A stretch of DNA of 64,000 nt from Opitutus terrae PB90-1 (GTDB lineage Bacteria > Verrucomicrobiota > Verrucomicrobiia > Opitutales > Opitutaceae): the NCBI RefSeq assembly GCF_000019965.1, contig NC_010571.1:2427001-2491000 (forward strand), in the 5' to 3' direction. This document shows positions 3,932-18,458 of the stretch, piece after piece. Position 1 is the first letter of the stretch, and each line of letters begins with the position of its first letter. A program made the translations under genes and the position numbers. Below the pieces are notes generated by a model that saw nothing but the letters and a program-made list of their open reading frames with translations, ran no database searches and was not told where the DNA came from.

Positions 3932-4870
3932 ATGAGTTCAACCGATTCTACCCCGCTCGCAGTTCTCGCCCGGCCCTATTCATTGACTCGTTCCCGGTTG
4001 GGAACTGAGACGAAAATCTTCTCCGAAAGATATCTTTGTACGCCGGGCAGCATTGCAGTTCTCTGTGAAAGTATAAGTACAAAGCTGCAGTCGCTTACTC
4101 CAAAGGCAGGCGGCTTCAGCTATCTGCTCTCGTTTTCTGACAGGACCCATTTGGATAAGTCGGACCTTGGCTTCCTGTGTAAGTCTACCATAGATACTGG
4201 AAAGACGACGGAGCGACTAGTACTGAAGTGGATCGTCACGCACGATATTAACGGTGAAGACAATGAACTAACGGTGGTGATCCGGATCGCTAACCCGATT
4301 AATCCACTGTTGTTCTTTCAGGCAGCACTTAGCAAGTCGCCGCAGGATATCGACAACGTCGATTTTGAGCTGGGATCTACCTGCGTATCCGTTTCAGGAG
4401 CAGGTCAGATTTTGTGCGACGAGTTTTTTGGATTGGTGCATCGTTGGATTGAGGCGAGGGATAAACCGTATTCATTCATTGGCATAGACGCATTCGTTAA
4501 GAAGCATGGTAGGAAGATCGCTTTTCTGAACCGGTTCCTTCTCCCGTATATTTTGCTCGCTGGTACAATGCTGGTCAGCGGCGGGCTAGAAACGAAGTTC
4601 GGGTGTGCTCCCGAGCAGGTTCTGATCCTAGCTCTGTTGTTGTTCTTTGTATCCCGCGATCTTGGCCTAGCGGTGAACAAGAAAGTCGAGCAATGGGCAC
4701 AGAATCTGTTTAAGTTCAGTATCTTCCAAATAACTACGGGGGATAATGATTTAGTCACAAAACTGGTCGCGAAGTCGAAGAATAGCTCGCTCAAGCTGTG
4801 CGGGAGTGTGGTGTATGCTTTCGCAATCAATATTGGCGCCAGCGCGGTGTTTTGGTGGCTCACGAAATAG
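3932..4870 (+). CDS. Orphan membrane protein, unknown function
   Basis: 312 residues starting MSSTDSTPLAVL. I do not recognise the family. The N-terminal two thirds (about 1-190) is a soluble alpha/beta-looking region without obvious motifs. The last third has hydrophobic segments around residues 200-217 (NRFLLPYILLAGTMLVSGG), 230-245 (ILALLLFFV) and the extreme C-terminus (YAFAINIGASAVFWWL), so it is probably a C-terminally anchored inner-membrane protein. Its base composition is markedly lower in GC than that of the chromosomal genes, and it sits between a tRNA-like relic and an integrase remnant, all signs of horizontal origin. Confidence 0.6.
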   Translation: MSSTDSTPLAVLARPYSLTRSRLGTETKIFSERYLCTPGSIAVLCESISTKLQSLTPKAGGFSYLLSFSDRTHLDKSDLGFLCKSTIDTGKTTERLVLKWIVTHDINGEDNELTVVIRIANPINPLLFFQAALSKSPQDIDNVDFELGSTCVSVSGAGQILCDEFFGLVHRWIEARDKPYSFIGIDAFVKKHGRKIAFLNRFLLPYILLAGTMLVSGGLETKFGCAPEQVLILALLLFFVSRDLGLAVNKKVEQWAQNLFKFSIFQITTGDNDLVTKLVAKSKNSSLKLCGSVVYAFAINIGASAVFWWLTK

Positions 4871-4886
4871 AAGCCGATATGATGCG

Positions 4887-5148
4887 CTAGCGACTCGGTA
4901 GGATCTGAAAATATTTTGTGGCATCTGCTGCCGTCGCTCTTCCCTTGTAGTGCTGGTACAGCATTCGGGGATTGGCGTGACAGAGGATGACGGCGGTGCG
5001 GGCGGCATCCTTGTGCTTTGCGACGTGGTAGGAGCAGAACGAGTGCCGCAGCACGTTCCCGGGGTTCTGGATGCCCGCTAGCCGGAACACGTCGGATTTC
5101 TGGGCTAGGTATTGACGCTCGGTCAGCGTCCACGCCGCGTCAGGTGCA
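4887..5148 (-). pseudogene. C-terminal remnant of a tyrosine recombinase
   Basis: About 85 codons remain in frame before an upstream stop. NVLRHSFCSYHVAKHKD matches the HxxR box of phage-type integrases and ANPRMLYQHYKG contains the catalytic tyrosine region. The N-terminal domains and the first catalytic arginine are missing. The remnant and the low-GC genes to its left are best explained as a decayed integrative element, distinct from the intact element that starts at 5646. Confidence 0.72.
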
Positions 5149-5156
5149 GTGCGCAG

Positions 5157-5498
5157 CTATTTCGGGAACTTTTCGTGTAGAAGTTCGCTATGGTGGCTCT
5201 CGCGGGTTTCTGCGAAACAGTCCGCGTAGATGCTAAACGCCAAGTGGCGTCGGCGGAATTCATGTCCTGAGCCGGTCTTCAGGTACTGCTCGAACGCGAG
5301 CGCGCGTCGCTCGTCGGCGAAGGCATGATAGCACACGAGATTCCATGGGCGGAACTTGGCAGTGTGAGGTGACCGCCCGGCGTTGTGATCCTCGATTCGG
5401 CCCCTGAGATTGTCCGTGCTTCCAACGTATTTCTCGCTCGGCGTGTGCGTCGATTCGAGGATATACACGTAGTGCACGGCAGTTCCTTTGTCGCACAT
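5157..5498 (-). CDS. GIY-YIG family nuclease-like protein
   Basis: 113 residues from ATG at 5498, chosen because AAGGAGG lies a few bases upstream; the longer frame to 5561 runs into an intergenic repeat. The core reads HYVYILES...EKYVGSTDNLRGRIEDHNAG, i.e. the two-strand GIY-YIG signature in the form VYI/YVG, followed by the arginine helix and an FEQYLKTGSG stretch, like small stand-alone UvrC-N-domain proteins (UPF0213/YhbQ-like). Cellular role is not established for this group. It lies just outside the left attachment repeat of the integrative element. Confidence 0.8.
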   Translation of the reverse strand: MCDKGTAVHYVYILESTHTPSEKYVGSTDNLRGRIEDHNAGRSPHTAKFRPWNLVCYHAFADERRALAFEQYLKTGSGHEFRRRHLAFSIYADCFAETRESHHSELLHEKFPK

Positions 5499-5645
5499 CT
5501 GGCCCTCCTTCGCCAAGCCTCCTTCGTGATGCCTGCGGAGGCTTCGGCCTACGGAGGGCATCCTTCGCTTCGTCTGCGATTAACACACCGAATGCTTCAG
5601 GATGGCCTGCCATCCGTAGCCTCAACCGGTTGCGGTTGAGCGAAG
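5499..5645. repeat. Intergenic repeat-like sequence
   Basis: Short inverted and GC-rich stretches such as gcctgcggaggc and gcctacggagggc, plus paired ggatggcctgccatcc and caaccggttgcggttg palindromes. No gene is seen. This resembles dispersed intergenic elements elsewhere in the window and ends at the left attachment repeat. Confidence 0.4.
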
Positions 5646-5677
5646 GATGGTGGACGCTCCCGGACTCGAACCGGGGA
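5646..5677. repeat. Left attachment repeat (att) of the integrative element
   Basis: A 32-bp sequence identical to 17845-17876, which is the 3' end (CCA, acceptor strand and T arm) of the intact tRNA-Val. The left copy has no tRNA 5' half, so it is the duplicated 3' end left by site-specific integration. The intact integrase starts 105 bp to its right. Confidence 0.85.
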
Positions 5678-5751
5678 TAACACGGCTGCGTCGTGTAAGT
5701 CGCTGTTTCACTCGTAGAAACACGTCCAGAAACATGGGAACATACCCTTGG

Positions 5752-5776
5752 ACGTTGGCACTAACGTTGTCACTAA
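5752..5776. promoter_or_regulatory. Possible integrase arm-binding repeats, left end
   Basis: ACGTTGGCACTA followed by GTTGTCACTAA just upstream of the integrase start. The same pair, with one base more between the halves, occurs in the same orientation at 17785-17810 beside the right attachment site. Each copy holds two similar 9-mers (TGGCACTA/TGTCACTAA). Presence near both ends suggests integrase or excisionase arm sites, possibly also autoregulation; this is inference. Confidence 0.5.
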
Positions 5777-5782
5777 ATTGGC

Positions 5783-6958
5783 ATGGCCTCGTTGCGTAAA
5801 CGCCTTCGCTCCCCCTACTGGTTCGCGTGCTTCTACAACGCGGACGGAACCCGTGCGCAGCGCTCGACGAAGCAGAGCGATAAGCGAAAGGCGCTCGGGA
5901 TCGCGAACCAATGGGAGCGTGCCGCGAAGCTCGCCGGACAGAAGCGGCTCGGCGAAGCGCAAGCCCGACGCGTGCTGTCCGATATCTACGAGATCACGAA
6001 CGACGAGCCGCTGCCGTCCGCCACAGCCAGGGATTTTCTGACGCGCTGGGCGGAGCGTCGGAAGCTCGACACGGCCAACCGGACTTTCCAGGCGTACAAA
6101 CAGGTCGTCCGCGATTTCCTGAAATCGCTTGGGCCTCGCGCCGAGCGGGACATTTCCCAGATCTCGAAGACCGACATCGTGACGTATCGCGATGAAGTGC
6201 TGACTCGGACTTCGATCGCGACCGCGAACAAGTCGCTGAAATATCTCAGAGTCGCACTTGGCGCGGCCTACAAGGACGGACTGACGCAGGACAACGCCGC
6301 GAGCAAAGTCGACGCGATCCGGCGTCGGGACGACGAGCGCAAGCAGCGCCGGCCGTTCACGCTGGGCGAACTAAAGGCCATCCTGGCGAATGCGTCCGCC
6401 GAATGGCGCGGCCTGATCCTGTTTGGGTTCTACACGGGTCAGCGGCTCTCGGACATCGCGAACCTCACTTGGCAAAACCTCGATCTCGAACGGGAGGTGA
6501 TCCGGTTCGTGACCGGCAAGACCGGGCGCCAGATGGAAATCCCGATTGCGGCGCCGCTCCTGGCGCACATCGAGACAATGCCAGCGTCGGACGATCCGTC
6601 GGCGCCACTGTTTCCGGAATCGTCGTCGGTCGCGGCGGGCGAATCGGCCGACTCGCGGCTGTCGCAGCACTTCTACGATCTGTTGGTCGCCGCTGGCCTC
6701 GCGAAGGCACGGCGGAGGGACAAGCAACGCGATGAAGGCGCACCAGCACACGGCCGCTCGCGGCGTCGGACGGTGCACGAAATCTCGTTCCACTCGCTGC
6801 GGCATACGGCGACATCGCTGCTCAAAAACGCCGGCGTTTCCGAGGCGGTGGCGATGGACATCATCGGCCACGACTCCGAAGCGATCAGCCGCCACTACAC
6901 GCATATCGAAACGAAGGCGAAGCGGAAGGCCCTGGCGAAGCTACCGAAGCTGTTCTGA
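5783..6958 (+). CDS. int: Tyrosine site-specific integrase
   Basis: 391-residue phage-type recombinase expected to insert the 5646-17876 element into the 3' end of tRNA-Val. N-terminal arm-binding domain (about 1-75), core-binding domain (about 80-180, ending in RVALGAAYKDG) and catalytic domain (about 190-391). Catalytic residues are all present: Arg in TGQRLSD, Lys in VTGKTGR, HxxR in HSLRHT, His in IIGHDS and the nucleophile Tyr in SRHYTHIE. It reads inward from the left attachment repeat, and the putative arm-type repeats lie within its 5' region. It looks intact and functional. Confidence 0.95.
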   Translation: MASLRKRLRSPYWFACFYNADGTRAQRSTKQSDKRKALGIANQWERAAKLAGQKRLGEAQARRVLSDIYEITNDEPLPSATARDFLTRWAERRKLDTANRTFQAYKQVVRDFLKSLGPRAERDISQISKTDIVTYRDEVLTRTSIATANKSLKYLRVALGAAYKDGLTQDNAASKVDAIRRRDDERKQRRPFTLGELKAILANASAEWRGLILFGFYTGQRLSDIANLTWQNLDLEREVIRFVTGKTGRQMEIPIAAPLLAHIETMPASDDPSAPLFPESSSVAAGESADSRLSQHFYDLLVAAGLAKARRRDKQRDEGAPAHGRSRRRTVHEISFHSLRHTATSLLKNAGVSEAVAMDIIGHDSEAISRHYTHIETKAKRKALAKLPKLF

Positions 6959-10619: not shown

Positions 10620-10976
10620 TTACTTGCTCGTACGCGGGCGCGGACACGCGCTCAGTTTGCTGACGAATGGCGCCGTGGCCGCCAATCCAGCGTAGGCCGA
10701 CGGCAGCACGCGCAAGCCGGTCAGACTGGAGCATTCGATCGCCTCCATCACCTGGCCGAGGTTGCGGCCGTGGATCTCGACTTCGCGCTCGGCGAAGGAG
10801 ATCACGAGTTGGTCGCCGGTCAGGCAGGCGCCGAGATAACGCGACCAGGGCAGGGAGAGCAGGTCGCCATTCGCGAAATGCAGCGTGAGTGACACCGCGT
10901 CGCCGGGAGCCGTGGTCGACATGCATGGCGGCGGACGGACCGGTTTGGCTGGGGTCACTGGTTCACGGTTGTTCAT
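10620..10976 (-). CDS. Small protein coupled to the relaxase gene
   Basis: 118 residues. The middle part (SLTLHFANGDLLSLPWSRYLGACLTGDQLVISFAEREVEIHGRNL) reads like a compact beta domain and the tail like a helix plus basic end. Not recognised as a named family. The ATG overlaps the relaxase stop by four bases (ATGA), so it is translationally coupled to the relaxase and may be a relaxosome accessory or regulator. The role is inferred only from this coupling. Confidence 0.55.
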   Translation of the reverse strand: MNNREPVTPAKPVRPPPCMSTTAPGDAVSLTLHFANGDLLSLPWSRYLGACLTGDQLVISFAEREVEIHGRNLGQVMEAIECSSLTGLRVLPSAYAGLAATAPFVSKLSACPRPRTSK

Positions 10977-13705
10977 GCGCTCATTCCCATCCGCTGCCCT
11001 TCACGCAGGTGCATTTCCTGACGCGGCCGCTGGGTAGCCCAGAGTTCCTGTCGGTGCTGCTGGGTCCAGCGGAGCGCTAACGCCAGCCGCTCGCCCTCGG
11101 TTGCGAGTTCCCGCTCGCCTGGCGACTCGACGCGGGTGCGCAATTGATCCTTGTCCGGCGTGAAGACCACAACGCGCTTACGCCCTCGCGAAATCGTCAC
11201 GTACCACTGCTGCGCGTTCGTGGCCGCGCGTTCCCCGGCATCAGCGAACAGTACCGTGTCGACCGTCTTCCCCTGGGAGCCGTACGACGTGACCGCATAG
11301 CCACGCACCAGCAGCCGCTGTGATGACGTGAGCGTCTTCGTTGCTCCACGTTCATCCGTGACGATCAACGCGCCGGACGAATCGACATTCGCCACGGTGA
11401 CGAGTTCTCCGTTGTGCAGTCGCGTGCCCTCGACGCTTCGACCGTTAGCCTTCAGTTGCAGCCGATCGCCGGGCGCGATTTCCATGTCGGTCCGTTTGGT
11501 GACGATGAATCGTTCCGCGTGCCGGTAGCCGACCGTCGATCGCCGGCCATCCTTTACCAAGACAACGCCGCGATCGTTCGCCTCGGCGATTTCGCAGGTG
11601 TCGCCTTTCTTGAATCGGCCGTAGCTGCGAAGGAAGTGCGCCGCTTGCCCGGGTTCGTAAAACCGCGGATCGCGTTTCTGGGATTCGCTGCGGTCGACCG
11701 GCTGGTAGGTCACCGTTGGTGTGCCGGGGCCCAGTTTCCCCGCCGAATGCAGCGCGGTGCGCACCGCATCGTTCACTGCATGGACTTCGTTCCACGTCTG
11801 AGCGACGACCACGACGCTTTCGCCGCGTTCCATCGCGGTCAGATACTCTCCAGCGACCGCAACCCCGCGGACTTCGTCCGGCAACTCGCGCACGCAACCG
11901 AGTTGGTCGAGCAGATCGAACGATTCGGCCTGTTTGCCTTCGGAAGCCTTCTTCACGACTGCCCGGTACCGTCTGATGAATCGCCGTTCTTCGCTCGTGC
12001 GTGCAAGCGCCGGGTTCTGCCGACGGATCGTCCGCAGCACGGCAACGCGTGGCTTTGCGTGCTGCTCGATGGCACGCAGTGCGTCCGACGCGGCGACGGC
12101 TCCATGCTGCCGCGTGTCACCGGAGAGAATCAGCCGGCCACCGTGTGCCTGGACGAGACGAATCAATGCATGAAGATCCCGACCGCCGACCTGTCCGGCC
12201 TCGTCGAGGATAACGACCGCACCATGATCGAGCCGACCGGTCGCCAGCGTTCGAGCGAGCGTTTCGGCTGGCAGACCGTCGGTCTCCAGTGCGTGCACCT
12301 GCTGCCGCTGGGGAGCCAGCACGACCACCGGACGTTCCGCTGCCGCGAGTCCCAGAGCGACTTCCTTGAGCGTGTGACTCTTCCCGGTTCCCGCTCCGCC
12401 ACGGAACAGCGTGATGAAATCGCGGCTCGTCAGGATCCGCCGGGCAGCGCGTTCTTGTTCAGAGGAGAGCGAAGGGCTGGGGTGATAGTTCGGATTGAGC
12501 GCCCGGTGCCGTTTACGGCCATCCTGGGCGGCAAGCACGATGTCCAACTCGCAGCGCAGCAGTTCGGCGGAGATCAGCTTGCGCGTGCCATCCTCGCGCA
12601 GATACCCGTGCTGCTCGACAGCGCTTCGCAACGCATCGAGATCGAAGTTCTCGCCGCGGCCCCGAGCCAGTGCCGTGGCGATCAATTCGTAGTCGTTCAC
12701 CACTGCCCGATGCGTGAACAGGTGTTCGTCTGCCCAGCCAACGATGCTTCGCAGGTCCGCTCGTTGGGTGATGGCTGGAACGCCTCGCAAACCCGTCAGC
12801 GCCCGCGCTTCGTCGGGCGACAACTGCCGGTTCCAGTGCTCACGTAGCAACTCCGCCGTCGCACCTTTGATCTTCCGGTCGCGATGCTCATGCGCCAGAC
12901 GACGCCGTAGCGCGCCAATGTCGCCATCGTAGCCGTTGGCGACGTAGCGCTCCGCCTCTGCGGCAATCTGCGCGTGCCGTTTCGAGAACCGTTCGATCAA
13001 AGCCGCCGGCACCCGGCTGATCTCAAAATTGCGCGCGTTGTTCTCGATGCCGTAGCCGAGCGACCGCAACCGTTTGCTCAGTTCGTGAAAGTAGAGGTTC
13101 TCGGCAAACTTCTGTGCGCGGTACATGCCGACCGTCTGGAGCGCCTTCCAGCGGTTTTCCACCGGGTCGAAGGTCGCGTTGAACACCACGCAGTGCGTAT
13201 GGAGGTGCGGATCGAGCGCACGGCTGGTGTCATGCTGGAAGCAGGCGGCCACGATATTGCCGGTGACACGCTCAGCGTTCTGCTTCGACTTCCGGATCCG
13301 GGTTTCAGCGAACTTTTCCAGCTCGATCATCGCCAGCCGCACGGCGTCACGATGTGCATCCACGATCCGGGAATCCTGACAGCGTGCGACGATGGAAACG
13401 CTCTTCGGCGGACTGATGGTGAAGTCGTGGAAGATCCGGCGATTCGCTGCCAGCTTCCCGTCGACACGACGCGCCGTGTTCATTCGTGCGGTCAGTCGCT
13501 TGCCGGTCTCCGGATGCAGCCCTTCACAGAGCGCCAGGAATTCCTTTTCGGTGACGGCGCCTGTAAGTCCGAGCCGCTCGGCTGCGAGCCCCAGCCAATC
13601 GCCGGCGATCGTCTGACCCTCGGAGTAGTAGTCGCCGACGCGCAGGTGATCGCGGAAATACTCGCGTGCGTTCTGAAGGTTGAGCTGTGGTTTTGGTCGC
13701 AGCAT
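10973..13705 (-). CDS. MobF-family (TrwC/TraI-like) conjugative relaxase-helicase
   Basis: 910 residues. It should nick the element's transfer origin, stay covalently bound to the 5' end and unwind the strand. The N-terminal relaxase domain (about 1-300) has the catalytic tyrosine pair in GDYYSEG (residues 26-27) and the metal-binding triad in DPHLHTH (about 165-172). The C-terminal RecD-like helicase has Walker A GGAGTGKSHT (about 440) and Walker B VVILDEAGQ. Length fits the family. No TraD/TrwB coupling ATPase or type IV secretion gene is present in the element, so transfer would need a helper. Confidence 0.93.
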   Translation of the reverse strand: MLRPKPQLNLQNAREYFRDHLRVGDYYSEGQTIAGDWLGLAAERLGLTGAVTEKEFLALCEGLHPETGKRLTARMNTARRVDGKLAANRRIFHDFTISPPKSVSIVARCQDSRIVDAHRDAVRLAMIELEKFAETRIRKSKQNAERVTGNIVAACFQHDTSRALDPHLHTHCVVFNATFDPVENRWKALQTVGMYRAQKFAENLYFHELSKRLRSLGYGIENNARNFEISRVPAALIERFSKRHAQIAAEAERYVANGYDGDIGALRRRLAHEHRDRKIKGATAELLREHWNRQLSPDEARALTGLRGVPAITQRADLRSIVGWADEHLFTHRAVVNDYELIATALARGRGENFDLDALRSAVEQHGYLREDGTRKLISAELLRCELDIVLAAQDGRKRHRALNPNYHPSPSLSSEQERAARRILTSRDFITLFRGGAGTGKSHTLKEVALGLAAAERPVVVLAPQRQQVHALETDGLPAETLARTLATGRLDHGAVVILDEAGQVGGRDLHALIRLVQAHGGRLILSGDTRQHGAVAASDALRAIEQHAKPRVAVLRTIRRQNPALARTSEERRFIRRYRAVVKKASEGKQAESFDLLDQLGCVRELPDEVRGVAVAGEYLTAMERGESVVVVAQTWNEVHAVNDAVRTALHSAGKLGPGTPTVTYQPVDRSESQKRDPRFYEPGQAAHFLRSYGRFKKGDTCEIAEANDRGVVLVKDGRRSTVGYRHAERFIVTKRTDMEIAPGDRLQLKANGRSVEGTRLHNGELVTVANVDSSGALIVTDERGATKTLTSSQRLLVRGYAVTSYGSQGKTVDTVLFADAGERAATNAQQWYVTISRGRKRVVVFTPDKDQLRTRVESPGERELATEGERLALALRWTQQHRQELWATQRPRQEMHLREGQRMGMSA

Positions 13706-14214: not shown

Positions 14215-14281
14215 TGACCTGCCCCCCTGAAACTGGAGTGGCGTGAGCGAGAAAGCCGGGTGAAAATGAACCTCACCCGAC

Positions 14282-14545
14282 ATGAAGAAGCACCACACCG
14301 AGGAGCAGATCCTCGGGATCCTGAAGGAAGCCGAGATGGGCAAACCGTTGCCCGATCTTTTGCGTCAGCACGCGATTTCCAGCGGCACGTTCTATCGGTG
14401 GAAGAGCCGTTACGGCGGCCTGGAGCCGAGCCAGCTGCAGCGGTTGAAGCAGCTGGAGCGGGAGAACACCGAGCTGAAGAAGATCGTCGCCGATCAGGCG
14501 TTGGACATCCGGATGCTGAAGGATGTGAACTCAAAAAACTGGTAG
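14282..14545 (+). CDS. IS3-family transposase OrfA
   Basis: 87 residues. N-terminal helix-turn-helix (QILGILKEAEMGKPLPDLLRQHAISSGTFYRWKSRYGG), then a leucine-zipper-like helix (LQRLKQLERENTELKKIVADQ) for dimerisation. It recognises the terminal repeats and, unfused, usually regulates transposition. The heptamer A AAA AAC at 14533-14539, read in the OrfA frame two codons before the stop, is a classic -1 slippery site that should yield the OrfAB transposase. Confidence 0.92.
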   Translation: MKKHHTEEQILGILKEAEMGKPLPDLLRQHAISSGTFYRWKSRYGGLEPSQLQRLKQLERENTELKKIVADQALDIRMLKDVNSKNW

Positions 14546-15465
14546 AGCCCGCCACTCGTCGTGCTGCTGTGGATTACCTGAAGACAAGTTATCCGGTGAG
14601 CAGGACACGGGCGTGCGGGCTGCTGCGTTTGGCCGTGAGCAGCTACTACTACCAGTCACACGGCCGGCGTGATGAGTTGCCCGTGCGGAGCGCCTTGCGG
14701 CGCCATGCCGTGGTGCGTCGACGCTGGGGCTATCGTCGGTTGCTGGTGCTGCTGCGCCGGGAAGGTATCGCTGATAATCACAAGCGGGTGTATCGGCTCT
14801 ATCGGGCCGAAGGCTTGCAGGTGCGGCAGCGACGCCGGCGCAAACAACGACTGGCTCGTGGCGTCGAAGCGGTCGCCGCGCCACAACGGCCGAACGAACG
14901 CTGGAGCTTGGACTTCGTCCACGACCGGCTGGCCAACGGGCGCTCGTTACGCCTGCTCACCGTGCATGACGACTACACCCGCGAGTGCCTGTGGATCGAG
15001 GCCGACACCTCATTGTCCGGGCCGCGGGTGGCACGCGTGCTCGACTATCTCACCGAGTTGCGCGGCCGACCCGGCAGCCTGCTCACCGACAACGGGCCGG
15101 AGTTTGCCGGCCTGGCACTCGAGCGCTGGACGCACGAGCGACAAGTGAACCATCGCTTCATCACGCCAGGAAAGCCGTCCCAGAACGGCTACATCGAAAG
15201 CTTCAACGGCAAGCTCCGCGACGAGTGCCTCAACGAAACCGAGTTTCTTTCGGTCAGCCATGCCCGCGATCTGCTCGAAGCGTTCCGCGAAGACTACAAC
15301 CACCAACGACCGCACAGCTCACTCCACGATCTGACGCCGGCCCAGTTTGCGGCCAAAATCGCGCGAGCCCCCATGGGGGCTCCTGTGGACCTGATCAACC
15401 CTCCGCTTGCAGTCCCAACCCTCGTCAGTAAACCAACCTCAACCGATCCGGTTCTCTCGTTTTAA
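14530..15465 (+). CDS. IS3-family transposase OrfB (DDE domain), made by -1 frameshift
   Basis: The catalytic half, in the -1 frame relative to OrfA. The coordinates begin at the frameshift; translation as OrfAB would start at 14282. HTH_21-type region (SYPVSRTRACGLL...WGYRRLLVLLRREG) followed by the rve integrase core. The DDE residues are Asp in ERWSLDFVHD, Asp in LLTDNGPEF and Glu in NGYIESFNGKLRDECL. The frame is intact to its stop, so the IS is probably active or recently so. Confidence 0.9.
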   Translation, partial: LKKLVEPATRRAAVDYLKTSYPVSRTRACGLLRLAVSSYYYQSHGRRDELPVRSALRRHAVVRRRWGYRRLLVLLRREGIADNHKRVYRLYRAEGLQVRQRRRRKQRLARGVEAVAAPQRPNERWSLDFVHDRLANGRSLRLLTVHDDYTRECLWIEADTSLSGPRVARVLDYLTELRGRPGSLLTDNGPEFAGLALERWTHERQVNHRFITPGKPSQNGYIESFNGKLRDECLNETEFLSVSHARDLLEAFREDYNHQRPHSSLHDLTPAQFAAKIARAPMGAPVDLINPPLAVPTLVSKPTSTDPVLSF

Positions 15466-15584: not shown

Positions 15585-16235
15585 TCAGCAAGAAGGCCAC
15601 CACGCAGAGAAGACAGCGGCGGCTCCAACTGCGAGCGCCAGAAAGATGAGACCTCTCCGGTAATATGCTTCTGCAGCGACCAGCCGGTTTGCCTTCATCC
15701 CCAAAAATGCTTCGTTTCGCTTGGTCCGGACGATAACTGAGTGGATCCGTTCGTTTCTTATCTTTCCTTTGCGATCCAACGTTTCAACGAGATCTGCAAC
15801 CGTTGGGAGGTAAAGCTCTCCGACCCGGCGAACCGCCATTGCCATCCAAAGGGACGTAACGAGATGTATCCCAGCCAATAGGTAGGTCGCCAACAGAACA
15901 TGTAATCTCCATCCCTCGACAATCCAGATTCTCCCGGAAAGAACTGGGGAGACCGCAAACAACGCAGTCACGATGCCTGTGGCTTGGAATAGTGTCCCCG
16001 CCTTATCTTCGATTCGCTCCCGCCGTTTGACCTCCGATTCGAGTAGCATCGTTGCATATTCCTCGAGCTGCTCGAAGTCATCCCCGTGTGAGTCGATTTC
16101 TCGTTTTAGCCGCTCCTCTTCCGCCTCCATGTCTCCCGATTGCTTGGACTTCAGTTTCTTTGGATCAATGTACTTGTCGGCTACGAGCACCTCGTACGCG
16201 GGCCAAACGAGGTAAATAGGTTTTCTCCAATTCAT
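15585..16235 (-). CDS. Membrane protein of the ATP-grasp peptide operon
   Basis: 216 residues from the ATG at 16235, which overlaps the stop of the ATP-grasp gene (ATGA). A cytoplasmic N-terminus (MNWRKPIYLVW) is followed by a charged coiled coil (about 45-90, ending ESEVKRRERIEDKA). Then come three hydrophobic segments: TLFQATGIVTALFAVSPVL, LHVLLATYLLAGIHLVTSLWMAMAV and the C-terminal GLIFLALAVGAAAVFSAWW. A coiled coil directly before membrane helices recalls small effector or sensor membrane proteins of conflict systems, but I do not recognise a named family. It may be a target, exporter partner or effector of the modified peptide. Confidence 0.7.
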   Translation of the reverse strand: MNWRKPIYLVWPAYEVLVADKYIDPKKLKSKQSGDMEAEEERLKREIDSHGDDFEQLEEYATMLLESEVKRRERIEDKAGTLFQATGIVTALFAVSPVLSGRIWIVEGWRLHVLLATYLLAGIHLVTSLWMAMAVRRVGELYLPTVADLVETLDRKGKIRNERIHSVIVRTKRNEAFLGMKANRLVAAEAYYRRGLIFLALAVGAAAVFSAWWPSC

Positions 16236-17194
16236 CGGGTGGTGTCCAAAGCTTGGAGCGTGTCGCAAATCGCCTCTGCGATCGGAAGGCCGACCGGCTG
16301 TTGTAGCCAGCCCCATTCACCCGACGGATTGATTTCAATGAAATACCATTCGCCTCGAGATTCGATAAGGTCGATGGCCCCGAAAACGAGCCCCGCATTC
16401 TGCACGAATTTAAGGCACATCCCCGCGATCTCTGCGGGAAGCTCAATAGGGACGAATTGCACCGCCGCTTTGCTAACCCGCCAATCGATGCCGTCTTGGG
16501 GTGGGTAACATACTTTCACCGCGAAAATTTTCGTCCCGACGATGGTGACCCGGTAATCGACCTTTGGGATCAGCGCTTCTTGGAAGATCGTCGGAGCCTG
16601 CCGTAACGCTGCCGCGTCATTAAGGTGACCTGATTCCACGAGACTGGTGAAGACGAAGCGGTCACGATCAATCCCTTCCAAGAGTGGAGCATAGAGAGCC
16701 TTAGCCGCGAGACCCGCGTGGTGTTCGCGGCGAAAGTTTTTTATAGCAGACGGTGAGTTTGAAACGATGGTGTCGGGGATCGTGAATCCAATTCGACGGG
16801 CCAGCGAAAGCTGACGAATCTTGTTTTCGAACAGTGAGGCAGGTGTGAGTGGGTTCATCCAGCCATCGCTGATCGCTACCTCCAGCGCCTCGATCCAAAC
16901 CATCCATTGTTCGACGACGAATTTCTCCTCATCTGGTGCGGGGCGTTCCGGCGTCGGCACTTCATCAAAAGCATGGCCCGGGCGCCGATGCCATACTGCT
17001 CCAATGTCCGATGACTTTACGGAAGAGCCATTGCGATCTATCGTCACCGAGGGCGCAGGTGAGAGCCGAAAGCTGCACTCACCCGTTCGCAGATCTTCGG
17101 TGTTCACCCGGACGTATGCAGCCCCTCGCCGTCTCAGCTCTCGCACGACAAAATCAGCTGAAACGTCCTGCTTGTTGGTCAGGATGAGAATCAC
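16232..17194 (-). CDS. MvdD-like ATP-grasp peptide ligase (graspetide-type)
   Basis: 320 residues. The N-terminus MILILTNKQDVSADFVVREL...RVNTEDL and the VWHRRPG segment match the ATP-grasp enzymes that form side-chain ester or amide links in microviridin-type peptides. The ATP-grasp core is complete: FENKIRQLSLARRIGFTIPDT, a lysine in GLAAKAL, VDYRVTIVGTKIFAVKV, and the metal-binding end AIDLIESRGEWYFIEINPSGEWGW. These enzymes use ATP to activate Asp/Glu carboxylates for attack by Ser/Thr/Lys. It lies 7 bases after a 74-residue candidate precursor and overlaps the membrane-protein gene, giving a three-gene operon. Enzyme class is well supported; the substrate is inferred from context. Confidence 0.88.
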   Translation of the reverse strand: MILILTNKQDVSADFVVRELRRRGAAYVRVNTEDLRTGECSFRLSPAPSVTIDRNGSSVKSSDIGAVWHRRPGHAFDEVPTPERPAPDEEKFVVEQWMVWIEALEVAISDGWMNPLTPASLFENKIRQLSLARRIGFTIPDTIVSNSPSAIKNFRREHHAGLAAKALYAPLLEGIDRDRFVFTSLVESGHLNDAAALRQAPTIFQEALIPKVDYRVTIVGTKIFAVKVCYPPQDGIDWRVSKAAVQFVPIELPAEIAGMCLKFVQNAGLVFGAIDLIESRGEWYFIEINPSGEWGWLQQPVGLPIAEAICDTLQALDTTR

Positions 17195-17201
17195 AACACA
17201 A

Positions 17202-17426
17202 TCAACGCCACATGCGGCGATCTTTCTGATCTTCGCCCTTCTCGATGTCGGCTTTTTTTGTCTTGGGTTCGACCAAGTGTGGGACTTCGATCAGGAGTGG
17301 ATTGCCCGGCAGATCAGACGCACGAAGCATGTCCACGTCGGAATCGAAGTAACTGGCTGACATCTTCGGAACACGACCTGGGGATTGGCAATCCTTAGCG
17401 TAGCGCAGGAGGAACGGGGTAGCCAT
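17202..17426 (-). CDS. Candidate graspetide precursor peptide
   Basis: 74 residues, first gene of the ATP-grasp operon. The N-terminus MATPFLLRYAKD resembles the PFFARFLE leader motif that microviridin ligases bind: Pro, Phe, the Arg at the same spacing and an aromatic residue after it coincide. Possible core regions are rich in donors and acceptors: SASYFDSDVD in the middle and the C-terminal KTKKADIEKGEDQ. No cleavage site can be fixed. The ATG at 17426 lacks a strong ribosome site, which is common in this genome. Precursor identity rests on gene order, size and the leader match. Confidence 0.65.
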   Translation of the reverse strand: MATPFLLRYAKDCQSPGRVPKMSASYFDSDVDMLRASDLPGNPLLIEVPHLVEPKTKKADIEKGEDQKDRRMWR

Positions 17427-17844: not shown

Positions 17845-17876
17845 GATGGTGGACGCTCCCGGACTCGAACCGGGGA
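17845..17876. repeat. Right attachment repeat (att) of the integrative element
   Basis: Identical 32-bp copy of 5646-17876's left boundary sequence at 5646-5677. It covers the encoded CCA, the 3' acceptor strand and the T arm of tRNA-Val, so integration left the tRNA intact. Confidence 0.85.
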
Positions 17877-17923
17877 CCCCTAGTGTGTGATACTAGTGCT
17901 CTAACCAACTGAGCTAAGCGTCC
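17847..17923 (-). tRNA. tRNA-Val (anticodon CAC)
   Basis: Complete cloverleaf on the minus strand. The acceptor GGACGCT pairs with AGCGTCC, the D arm is AGCTCAGTTGGTTAGAGC, the anticodon stem CTAGT/ACTAG encloses loop ATCACAC with anticodon CAC (reads GTG), and the T arm is CCCGG-TTCGAGT-CCGGG. Discriminator A is followed by an encoded CCA. Its 3' end is the integration target of the adjoining element. Confidence 0.97.
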
Positions 17924-18458
17924 GTCAGGAACGCGAGAACGTGGAGTCCTCTCCGCCGCGAATCAATTCTGTTTTTTTGCCGAGTGATTCCGTCTCGGCG
18001 AACCGGCCAACGACACCTCGAGCTCACACCGGCCACGCTACGCGTTGAGGTTTTCCGCCCAGAACGACACCACTCGCAAGGTGACGCTGAAGGGGTGCAG
18101 GAGGGATCCAAGAAGGCAGCAAGAGGGCATCAAGAGGGACCGCCGGCTCGGACATCAACGAGTTGCACGAGCAACCGTGCGGATATACCCCAAAACGGCG
18201 ATTCGAGGAACGAACTCCGACGATCGGTTCGAGTGACCGCGATGACGCCAGCCGGCCGGGCTCAGCGAGCCCGGCTACAACAAACCCGCGACGAGGGCGT
18301 CGCGGCCCCATCCAAGACGCGGTGGCCGGCGTGGTCAGGGTGTCCCGCGGTGTGACACCGTGCGGCGCAGTCTGGCCCGGCTGATCCCGAAACCCGCCGG
18401 ATCACCGAGGGAATACCGCGCCGGCTTGCTGGCCCAAAATTTGCGACGAGGTTTCATC
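17924..18458. other. Gap upstream of clpB with intergenic repeats
   Basis: No gene seen. It contains a GCCGGGCT/AGCCCGGC hairpin (18255-18275) and a copy of the cgcgacgagggcgt repeat (18288-18301), both related to elements elsewhere in the window. The clpB promoter should lie near the 3' end of this gap; I could not identify a convincing heat-shock promoter or CIRCE element. Confidence 0.45.

Follow-up and report, generated by a model that had tools for sequence, protein, structure and literature searches.

A predicted graspetide cassette with a membrane partner on an integrative element of Opitutus terrae, and its relatives with a fixed precursor tail

Known graspetide systems

In graspetide chemistry, the leader helix of the precursor docks on the ligase, Asp or Glu side chains are phosphorylated, and Thr/Ser or Lys side chains attack them. 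The described systems with the closest likeness to the locus considered here are the thuringinin type, the microviridins (group 1), the AMdnB/AMdnA pair and corallotide. In the accessible part of Makarova et al. 2022 (PMC8939145), thuringinin-type precursors are described with repeated Thr/Glu/Asp cores and with a specific membrane protein. In the available text of PMC12291112, ester-forming graspetide enzymes are reported to accept amine nucleophiles, and then to yield amides, and a Lys-Asp isopeptide has been reported in a graspetide in the accessible text of Carter et al. 2026 (PMC13097080). As far as these texts go, a core with Lys is therefore chemically ordinary.

The locus lies in a window of 64,000 nucleotides, the whole stretch of DNA that was analysed, from Opitutus terrae PB90-1 (contig NC_010571.1, positions 2,427,001 to 2,491,000). 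The window contains a three-gene operon with the following features:

17202..17426, minus strand: precursor peptide of predicted graspetide type, 74 aa (translation; HMM of 42 homologs)
17397..17417, minus strand: leader motif PFLLRYA, residues 4-10 of the peptide (HMM from seven TKT-group leaders)
17223..17261, minus strand: core TKKADIEKGEDQK, residues 56-68 (comparison with homologous tails)
16232..17194, minus strand: ATP-grasp ligase, 320 aa, GTG start, predicted macrocyclase (NCBIfam, Pfam and PDB matches)
15585..16235, minus strand: membrane protein, 216 aa, three long hydrophobic helices (HMMs of the TKT and KK partners; helices read by eye)

The order of precursor, single ATP-grasp ligase and membrane protein is that of the thuringinin type (Makarova cluster 13, membrane cluster 18). 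A PFLxxFA leader and a TK[TK]-acid core plan are also common to both, thuringinin being compared by its description. The window differs in having one core and not several, in a second acceptor that is Lys and not Thr, and in a ligase motif NPSGEWGWL (from residue 289) instead of NPNGQWAW; in the KK group of relatives described below, the core is also invariant and C-terminal.

The ATP-grasp class, the PFxxR-aromatic leader spacing and Lys, hydroxyl and acid residues in the core are held in common with the microviridins. Membership of that group was considered and rejected: the TxKxPSDxE/D core is absent from the translation, as the first-pass annotation of this DNA had said, there is a single ligase and no MvdC/MvdD pair, and the ligase falls below both curated cut-offs (MvdC 188.2 bits, cut-off 425; MvdD 147.2 bits, cut-off 475). 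A membrane protein is also added. AMdnB has the motif EINPTGEWG in common with the window ligase, and its precursor, AMdnA, differs. The corallotide synthetase is likewise of graspetide class and joins Lys to Asp as an isopeptide, whereas the corallotide precursor is very large, with five KIVAD repeats, is modified by an oxygenase and is confined to Corallococcus in the accessible text of that paper (Carter et al. 2026).

The precursor peptide

Translation of the minus strand of 17202-17426 gives MATPFLLRYAKDCQSPGRVPKMSASYFDSDVDMLRASDLPGNPLLIEVPHLVEPKTKKADIEKGEDQKDRRMWR-stop, and the plus strand is interrupted by an in-frame stop. The first-pass annotation had proposed this open reading frame, with no strand given, as a precursor with a microviridin-like leader motif. 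It is a genuine frame of the minus strand, and its reading as a graspetide-type precursor is supported by the graspetide-class ATP-grasp ligase encoded as the next gene, seven bases downstream on that strand, and by core columns conserved in homologs. By sequence comparison the ligase, core and leader are homologous to those of other cassettes, and the window peptide can with high probability be called a graspetide precursor. The more interesting features of the locus had gone unremarked in that annotation: the ligase, the membrane protein, the mobile element and a tail that does not vary across the family.

Against an HMM of 42 distinct homologs, built without the window peptide, the peptide scored 24.6 bits, nearly all of it supplied by the tail. 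The best of 5000 shuffles of the peptide reached 8.9 bits, and the peptide ranked first among 854 stop-to-stop fragments of the window; its resemblance to the family is thus greater than chance. The core retains eight of ten residues that are invariant in the tail of the family, the altered positions being Thr to Lys and Gly to Asp. The peptide ends in DRRMWR-stop in place of the G[EQ]-stop of the KK family, and it lacks the His and the Trp found in every KK-group peptide. No family match to the peptide was found in NCBIfam, Pfam or PADLOC. A search of 288 genomes of the phylum with the 74-aa peptide returned nothing better than E 0.02 besides itself, and the sole match inspected (L003) is not followed by such an operon.

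The leader motif PFxxR[FY] occupies residues 4-9, and within the first 30 residues it occurs in one of 501 window ORFs of 30-150 aa, the window peptide itself. Scored alone with the KK-group HMM, the leader gave 0.4 bits, a value equalled or bettered by 269 of 20000 shuffles. With the HMM of TKT-group leaders it gave 10.6 bits, reached by none of 20000 shuffles, with a domain i-Evalue of 0.66 that is weak in absolute terms. A leader motif PFLxxFAxPR is common to the window peptide and the TKT sister group, and the kinship of the peptide is not with microviridin in particular. Two donor/acceptor runs had also been suggested. One of these, KTKKADIEKGEDQ, is the conserved core; the other, SASYFDSDVD, lies in the leader or linker outside the core, at a position where homologs retain an aromatic and usually also an acid or Asn. 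The alignment of homologs, which had been expected to show conserved leader and core columns, does so in the core, at its acid, Lys and hydroxyl positions, and in the leader, through the motif common to the sister group. A complete lack of such conservation, named beforehand as counter-evidence, is thus not what was observed. In the group with the closest core, the Pro and Phe of the leader are unconserved (His and Ile/Val/Leu/Pro instead).

Relatives with a fixed tail

Ligase matches were obtained in 88 plasmid records and two phage records, of which eight of the 90 were opened. Peptides from Rhizobium and Martelella plasmids end in SKKQDVETGEDQKGQ and KTKKNDLETGEDQKGE, plainly the KTKKADIEKGEDQK of the window. 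A scan of genome contigs with the window ligase alone returned no loci, whereas an alignment of three ligases (window, Rhizobium and Martelella) yielded 80 genome-contig and two viral-contig loci. A KK-tail peptide precedes the ligase in 37 of these 82 loci, the other 45 being Chryseobacterium. In all, 39 loci were read in detail, and 43 further Chryseobacterium loci were scanned for the tail peptide only.

The 37 KK loci belong to Gamma-, Beta- and Alphaproteobacteria, Bacteroidota and Firmicutes, with further ones in single metagenome bins named Omnitrophota, Eisenbacteria, Acidobacteria and others. Cassettes are also found on plasmids and on phage or viral contigs. A comparison of the Lelliottia cassette with complete E. 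coli genomes gave no DNA match. Within the accessible text of Carter et al. 2026 (PMC13097080), 43 graspetide groups are counted and 19 new ones listed, several with unidentified partner proteins; the KK group may already be numbered in the tables of that paper. A literature search, with subscription papers and figures mostly outside its scope, found neither the tail string, nor a link between graspetides and defence, nor a graspetide group with a conserved core or a membrane partner.

The loci contain 43 KK precursors, 42 of them distinct (L123 repeats L049), with a length of about 67 aa. The tail [ST]KKxDxETGEDxKG is present in all 42 distinct homologs and is near-invariant up to the stop, the last residue being E in 28, Q in 12, A in one and G in one. 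Ten residues (K, K, D, E, T, G, E, D, K, G) are the same in 42 of 42, where the collecting pattern itself required K K [DE] E GED, and the independent part is the T, the last K, the G and the position of the stop. Outside the tail, one His close to the N-terminus and one mid-peptide Trp are invariant in the group as well. At the DNA level the 42 copies of the tail comprise 41 different cores, and changes at the invariant residues are synonymous only, for example ACA/ACT/ACG/ACC for Thr. Judged from these sequences, the tail is under purifying selection and is kept while the remaining peptide drifts, which points to a product that is fixed and not diversifying.

Four loci (L056, L061, L072 and L078) encode two tandem KK precursors with differing leaders, the same tail and one ligase. 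In a Xenorhabdus bovienii megaplasmid (L180, 5989-7646), a 372-base CDS and an IS630 transposase come after a KK-type precursor, and the cassette is apparently interrupted.

The KK-tail peptide was found in no Chryseobacterium microviridin locus. Chryseobacterium accounts for more than half of the 80 genome loci. The two that were read (L053 and L060) prove to be microviridin clusters, in which the leader is PFFASFLE and the two ligases form an MvdC/MvdD-type pair; the pair of L053 scored 412 and 475 bits. The motif FLEVNPQGEWGML was matched 44 times in the Chryseobacterium loci. The Chryseobacterium MvdC motif is NPQGEWGML and that of MvdD is NAAGEFFWL.

The TKT sister group

The TKT group consists of three-gene operons on plasmids of Pseudomonas, Croceicoccus, Agrobacterium and Sinorhizobium and on viral contigs. 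Its precursors have leaders such as DPFLLRFATPR, and several TKTxxxQExDD or TKTxxxQESDD-like cores where the window peptide has one core of the KK type. The group matches the published description of the thuringinin type, and the two are equated here on that description. In the order to which the window belongs, L032 and L181 carry a TKT-type operon, and L033 and L034, ligase matches in the family of the window itself, are without this operon. A TKT ligase profile had 16 matches on viral contigs, of which only four (L125-L128) are TKT cassettes; the majority of the rest resemble other graspetide clusters.

The leader and membrane protein of the window fit the TKT group, while its core is KK-like and its ligase has the GEWGW motif of the KK group. 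On these sequence features the window cassette is a bridge between the KK and TKT groups. With its TKT-like front and KK-like core, it is either an intermediate or a mosaic.

Among the viral contigs, L131-L136 and L139 encode a graspetide-type ligase followed by a protein that, by its appearance, resembles isoaspartyl O-methyltransferase. A TKT cassette is present in a Leptospira phage genome record (L039) and in two IMG/VR contigs (L127 and L128), the proteins of these records being nearly identical or related, and L039 and L128 almost copies of one another.

The ATP-grasp ligase

The window ligase scored 203.7 bits with TIGR04187, under the curated cut-off, and it passes Pfam PF21068 (MvdD pre-ATP-grasp) narrowly, with 28.2 bits against a cut-off of 27. 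The nearest solved ligase by sequence is AMdnB (PDB 7m4s, 119.8 bits). Other solved relatives are 5ig9/5ig8 and CdnC (7mgv), with 7drm more distant. Every column that is invariant in nine aligned ligases, the window's included, is present in the window ligase. One ligase match per genome was found in each of 19 genomes.

The motif NPTGEW[GS]W occurs in 38 of 38 KK ligases and NPNGQWAW in nine of nine TKT ligases. Over residues 1-40 the mean identity of the window ligase is 0.49 to TKT and 0.35 to KK ligases; over residues 201-320 it is 0.42 to KK and 0.37 to TKT ligases. In the ligase tree, the KK clade has support of 100/99, and the window is placed at the base of this clade with weak support (87/51) and on a long branch (1.42). 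Both the tree and the identity figures exclude the TKT row L127.

The GEWG sequence was considered as a marker of amide-forming ligases and dropped. AMdnB forms omega-esters and carries GEWG, so that GEWG alone is no predictor of amide formation.

The membrane partner

The ATG of the membrane-protein gene overlaps the ligase stop by four bases. The window protein scored 38.1 bits with the HMM of the TKT partners versus 20.8 bits with that of the KK partners, and the two families of partner are homologous (profile comparison 96.4%, E 1.1e-9). Of 36 KK loci examined, 35 have a membrane gene adjoining the ligase, and in the lone exception (L103) the contig ends 378 bases beyond the ligase. In L104 the membrane gene is 4971-5861. 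The gene is apparently shortened or split in L054, L058 and the Martelella plasmid. TKT loci with a membrane gene are L032, L035-L040, L125-L128 and L181. The membrane family has conserved R and K residues ahead of its first long helix and a conserved R-N pair ahead of its final one.

An AlphaFold2 model of the window protein has long helices, with a mean pLDDT of 84.4 and a pTM of 0.80. A fold search with this model in PDB and BFVD returned no match at E <= 0.001. In VIA, the best Z was 11.1, to FAK FAT domains, within the range that is uninformative for helical bundles, and Orai channels stood at a Z of about 9.5. Kinship to SLATT proteins was first indicated by a weak SLATT_1 match (E 0.017). 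It was not upheld by hhalign (1.6%, with a 4-sequence profile), and SLATT_1 was matched at E 0.1 in only two of 32 members of the membrane family. Kinship to PycTM was likewise not supported (hhalign 5%, with a small profile of five sequences). Since neither kinship was supported and no fold match was significant, the assignment of the membrane protein as an effector is a guess.

Carriage on an integrative element

A 12.2-kb integrative element, with att repeats in tRNA-Val, carries the operon as cargo. This assignment is made because of the att repeats, an integrase, a relaxase, the tRNA site and a lower G+C content, the element stretch having 55-63% G+C versus 70% further right. The elements of the assignment are as follows:

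5646..5677: att repeat at the far end of the element, 32 bp identical to 17845-17876
5783..6958, plus strand: tyrosine-recombinase-like integrase, 391 aa, near one element end (family recognised by eye)
10973..13705, minus strand: MobF/TrwC-like relaxase, 910 aa (family recognised by eye)
14260..15465, plus strand: IS3-family transposase frames adjoining the operon (NCBIfam transpos_IS3, 235.7 bits)
17845..17876: att repeat within the 3' end of tRNA-Val, 32 bp identical to 5646-5677
17847..17923, minus strand: tRNA-Val (cac), the integration site

The integrase thus stands near one end, followed by the relaxase and the IS3 element, with the operon beside the tRNA. In the whole genome, no third complete copy of the 32-base repeat occurs among the matches listed. 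A ligase match at E 1e-25 or better was found in four of 372 genomes of the order, the window's included, and at 1e-10 in four of 387 genomes of the phylum. This sporadic distribution is as expected of mobile cargo. Inspection by eye recognised no defence gene in the element.

Gene neighbourhoods of the KK cassettes

The flanks of 30 KK loci (six loci left out) were represented by 149 of 180 ORFs of at least 110 aa. The control was 144 of 146 ORFs (the two longest left out) from 20 arbitrary regions of 16 of these genomes. Matches to PADLOC families at 1e-5 numbered 336 in the KK flanks versus 36 in the control, both counts being inflated by redundant PADLOC models; the best control matches were to generic families, such as RtcR and MotB-like proteins. 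Ten proteins chosen by eye supplied the named PADLOC neighbours. These include a complete Thoeris (ThsA and ThsB; L070), a complete Septu (PtuA and PtuB; L055), a type II methyltransferase (L062), PD-Lambda-3_B (L058) and PDC-M36A (L090); in L056, a CBASS cyclase and a PDC-S02 nuclease candidate lie directly downstream of the cassette. Genes for AbiEi/AbiEii adjoin the cassette of the Martelella plasmid. Defence neighbours were resolved in seven of the 30 loci, most flanks consisting of metabolic or unidentified genes. Pfam families among the KK neighbours include phage integrases (three), transposases (three) and a Mu portal protein. Taken together, the neighbourhoods are read as a defence-island habit of the KK cassettes. 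The three window proteins had no convincing match in PADLOC 2.0.0, the best being E 0.04 to a CorA model.

Proposed mechanism and alternative explanations

It can be said with high confidence that the window operon is a graspetide cassette. From the comparisons above we infer that its peptide is cross-linked in a particular ring pattern with the help of the leader, that the product controls the membrane protein and that the cassette functions in defence. The ATP-grasp ligase would bind the 74-aa peptide by its N-terminal leader helix (PFLLRYA) and activate core Asp/Glu residues as acyl-phosphates, which would be joined to Thr56 and to Lys57/Lys58 of TKKADIEKGEDQK. The product would contain one or two nested side-chain rings, a Thr ester and a Lys amide. 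An ester of Thr56 and an amide of Lys58 (or Lys57), to Glu62, Glu65 or Asp66, are predicted because the alignment of TKTxxxQExDD with TKKxDxExGED swaps the second Thr for Lys. The cyclised peptide would be no diversifying, secreted antibiotic and would act inside the cell, holding in check or switching on the three-helix membrane protein, and the cassette would be an abortive-infection-like defence module carried in mobile and defence islands. Once the cassette is granted, such an intracellular, defence-linked role is about evenly balanced against its negation. The best explanation as a whole, a graspetide cassette that is element cargo and has an internal, defence-linked role with the membrane protein, could likewise fall either way.

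The serious rival is that the graspetide is exported and serves, for instance, as a protease inhibitor of the plesiocin or microviridin sort; the membrane protein would then be an exporter or an immunity protein, and an unlinked peptidase would remove the leader. This is a real possibility, to be held tentatively. According to the accessible text of Makarova et al. 2022 (PMC8939145), all characterised graspetides are protease inhibitors, and transport is suggested there for the uncharacterised membrane proteins of thuringinin loci; the sister TKT group also has repeated thuringinin-like cores. Against it, the operons that were read contain no peptidase-ABC transporter, a result with which an unlinked peptidase is still compatible. 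The KK-group core forms the very C-terminal end of the peptide and stays the same from phylum to phylum, which would not be expected of a diversifying bioactive core, and the setting is one of mobile elements and defence islands. The internal, defence-linked role is favoured over export because of the defence-island habit, the fixed tail and the constant membrane partner.

The window copy might also be a decaying relic of a once functional KK cassette, its peptide deprived of essential positions. Two of the ten invariant tail residues are changed, a six-residue extension replaces G[EQ], the His and Trp that all KK-group peptides have are gone, and the ligase branch is long. Decay is nevertheless improbable, as none of the three frames is interrupted or shortened, the ligase retains every column that is invariant in the nine aligned ligases, and the leader and membrane protein fit the TKT group better, so that the differences look like those of a distinct lineage. 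Less probable by far is a peptide tag, by analogy with Pup, which is joined to its targets through a terminal Glu (deamidated from Gln); the ATP-grasp enzyme would join the peptide to other proteins via its C-terminal G[EQ]. The length of the KK peptides, their final E or Q after an invariant KG and the ability of the enzyme class to form amide bonds from carboxylates would suit a tag, but the window peptide ends in DRRMWR, two of the 42 homologs end in A or G, and the internal repeated acceptor/donor cores of the TKT group fit intramolecular rings. The reading of the peptide as a chance ORF that resembles a precursor, to which its small size and the weak leader-only score with the KK-group HMM might lend some colour, is refuted for practical purposes and has a negligible probability, given HMM scores that beat shuffles and other window fragments and a gene order that is the same as in 37 loci.

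The internal, defence-linked role can be given a more specific form, in which the invariant cyclised peptide would be the guard or trigger of a three-helix effector in a graspetide-run defence module. Infection that disturbed the peptide, the ligase or ATP would free the effector and halt the infected cell. This version is rather unlikely as it stands. If it were true, it would represent an immune system switched by ribosomal peptide modification and spread by integrative elements, plasmids and phages, and the window element would link the repeated-core and single-core branches of that module. Characterised graspetides are described as protease inhibitors with variable cores, whereas the tail of the KK branch is fixed across phyla. 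This branch is mobile, lies next to one membrane protein and is often in defence islands, which suggests a different use of graspetide chemistry, inside the producing cell. The window would be an intermediate that links this Lys-core branch to the thuringinin-like branch.

Sequence flanking the element

Just outside the element, at 3932-4870 of the window, there is an ORF of 312 aa with C-terminal hydrophobic stretches. It lies in a patch of low G+C content (49% at 4001-5000). A 29-base repeat, 90% identical between its two copies, flanks the element at 515-543 and 18282-18310.
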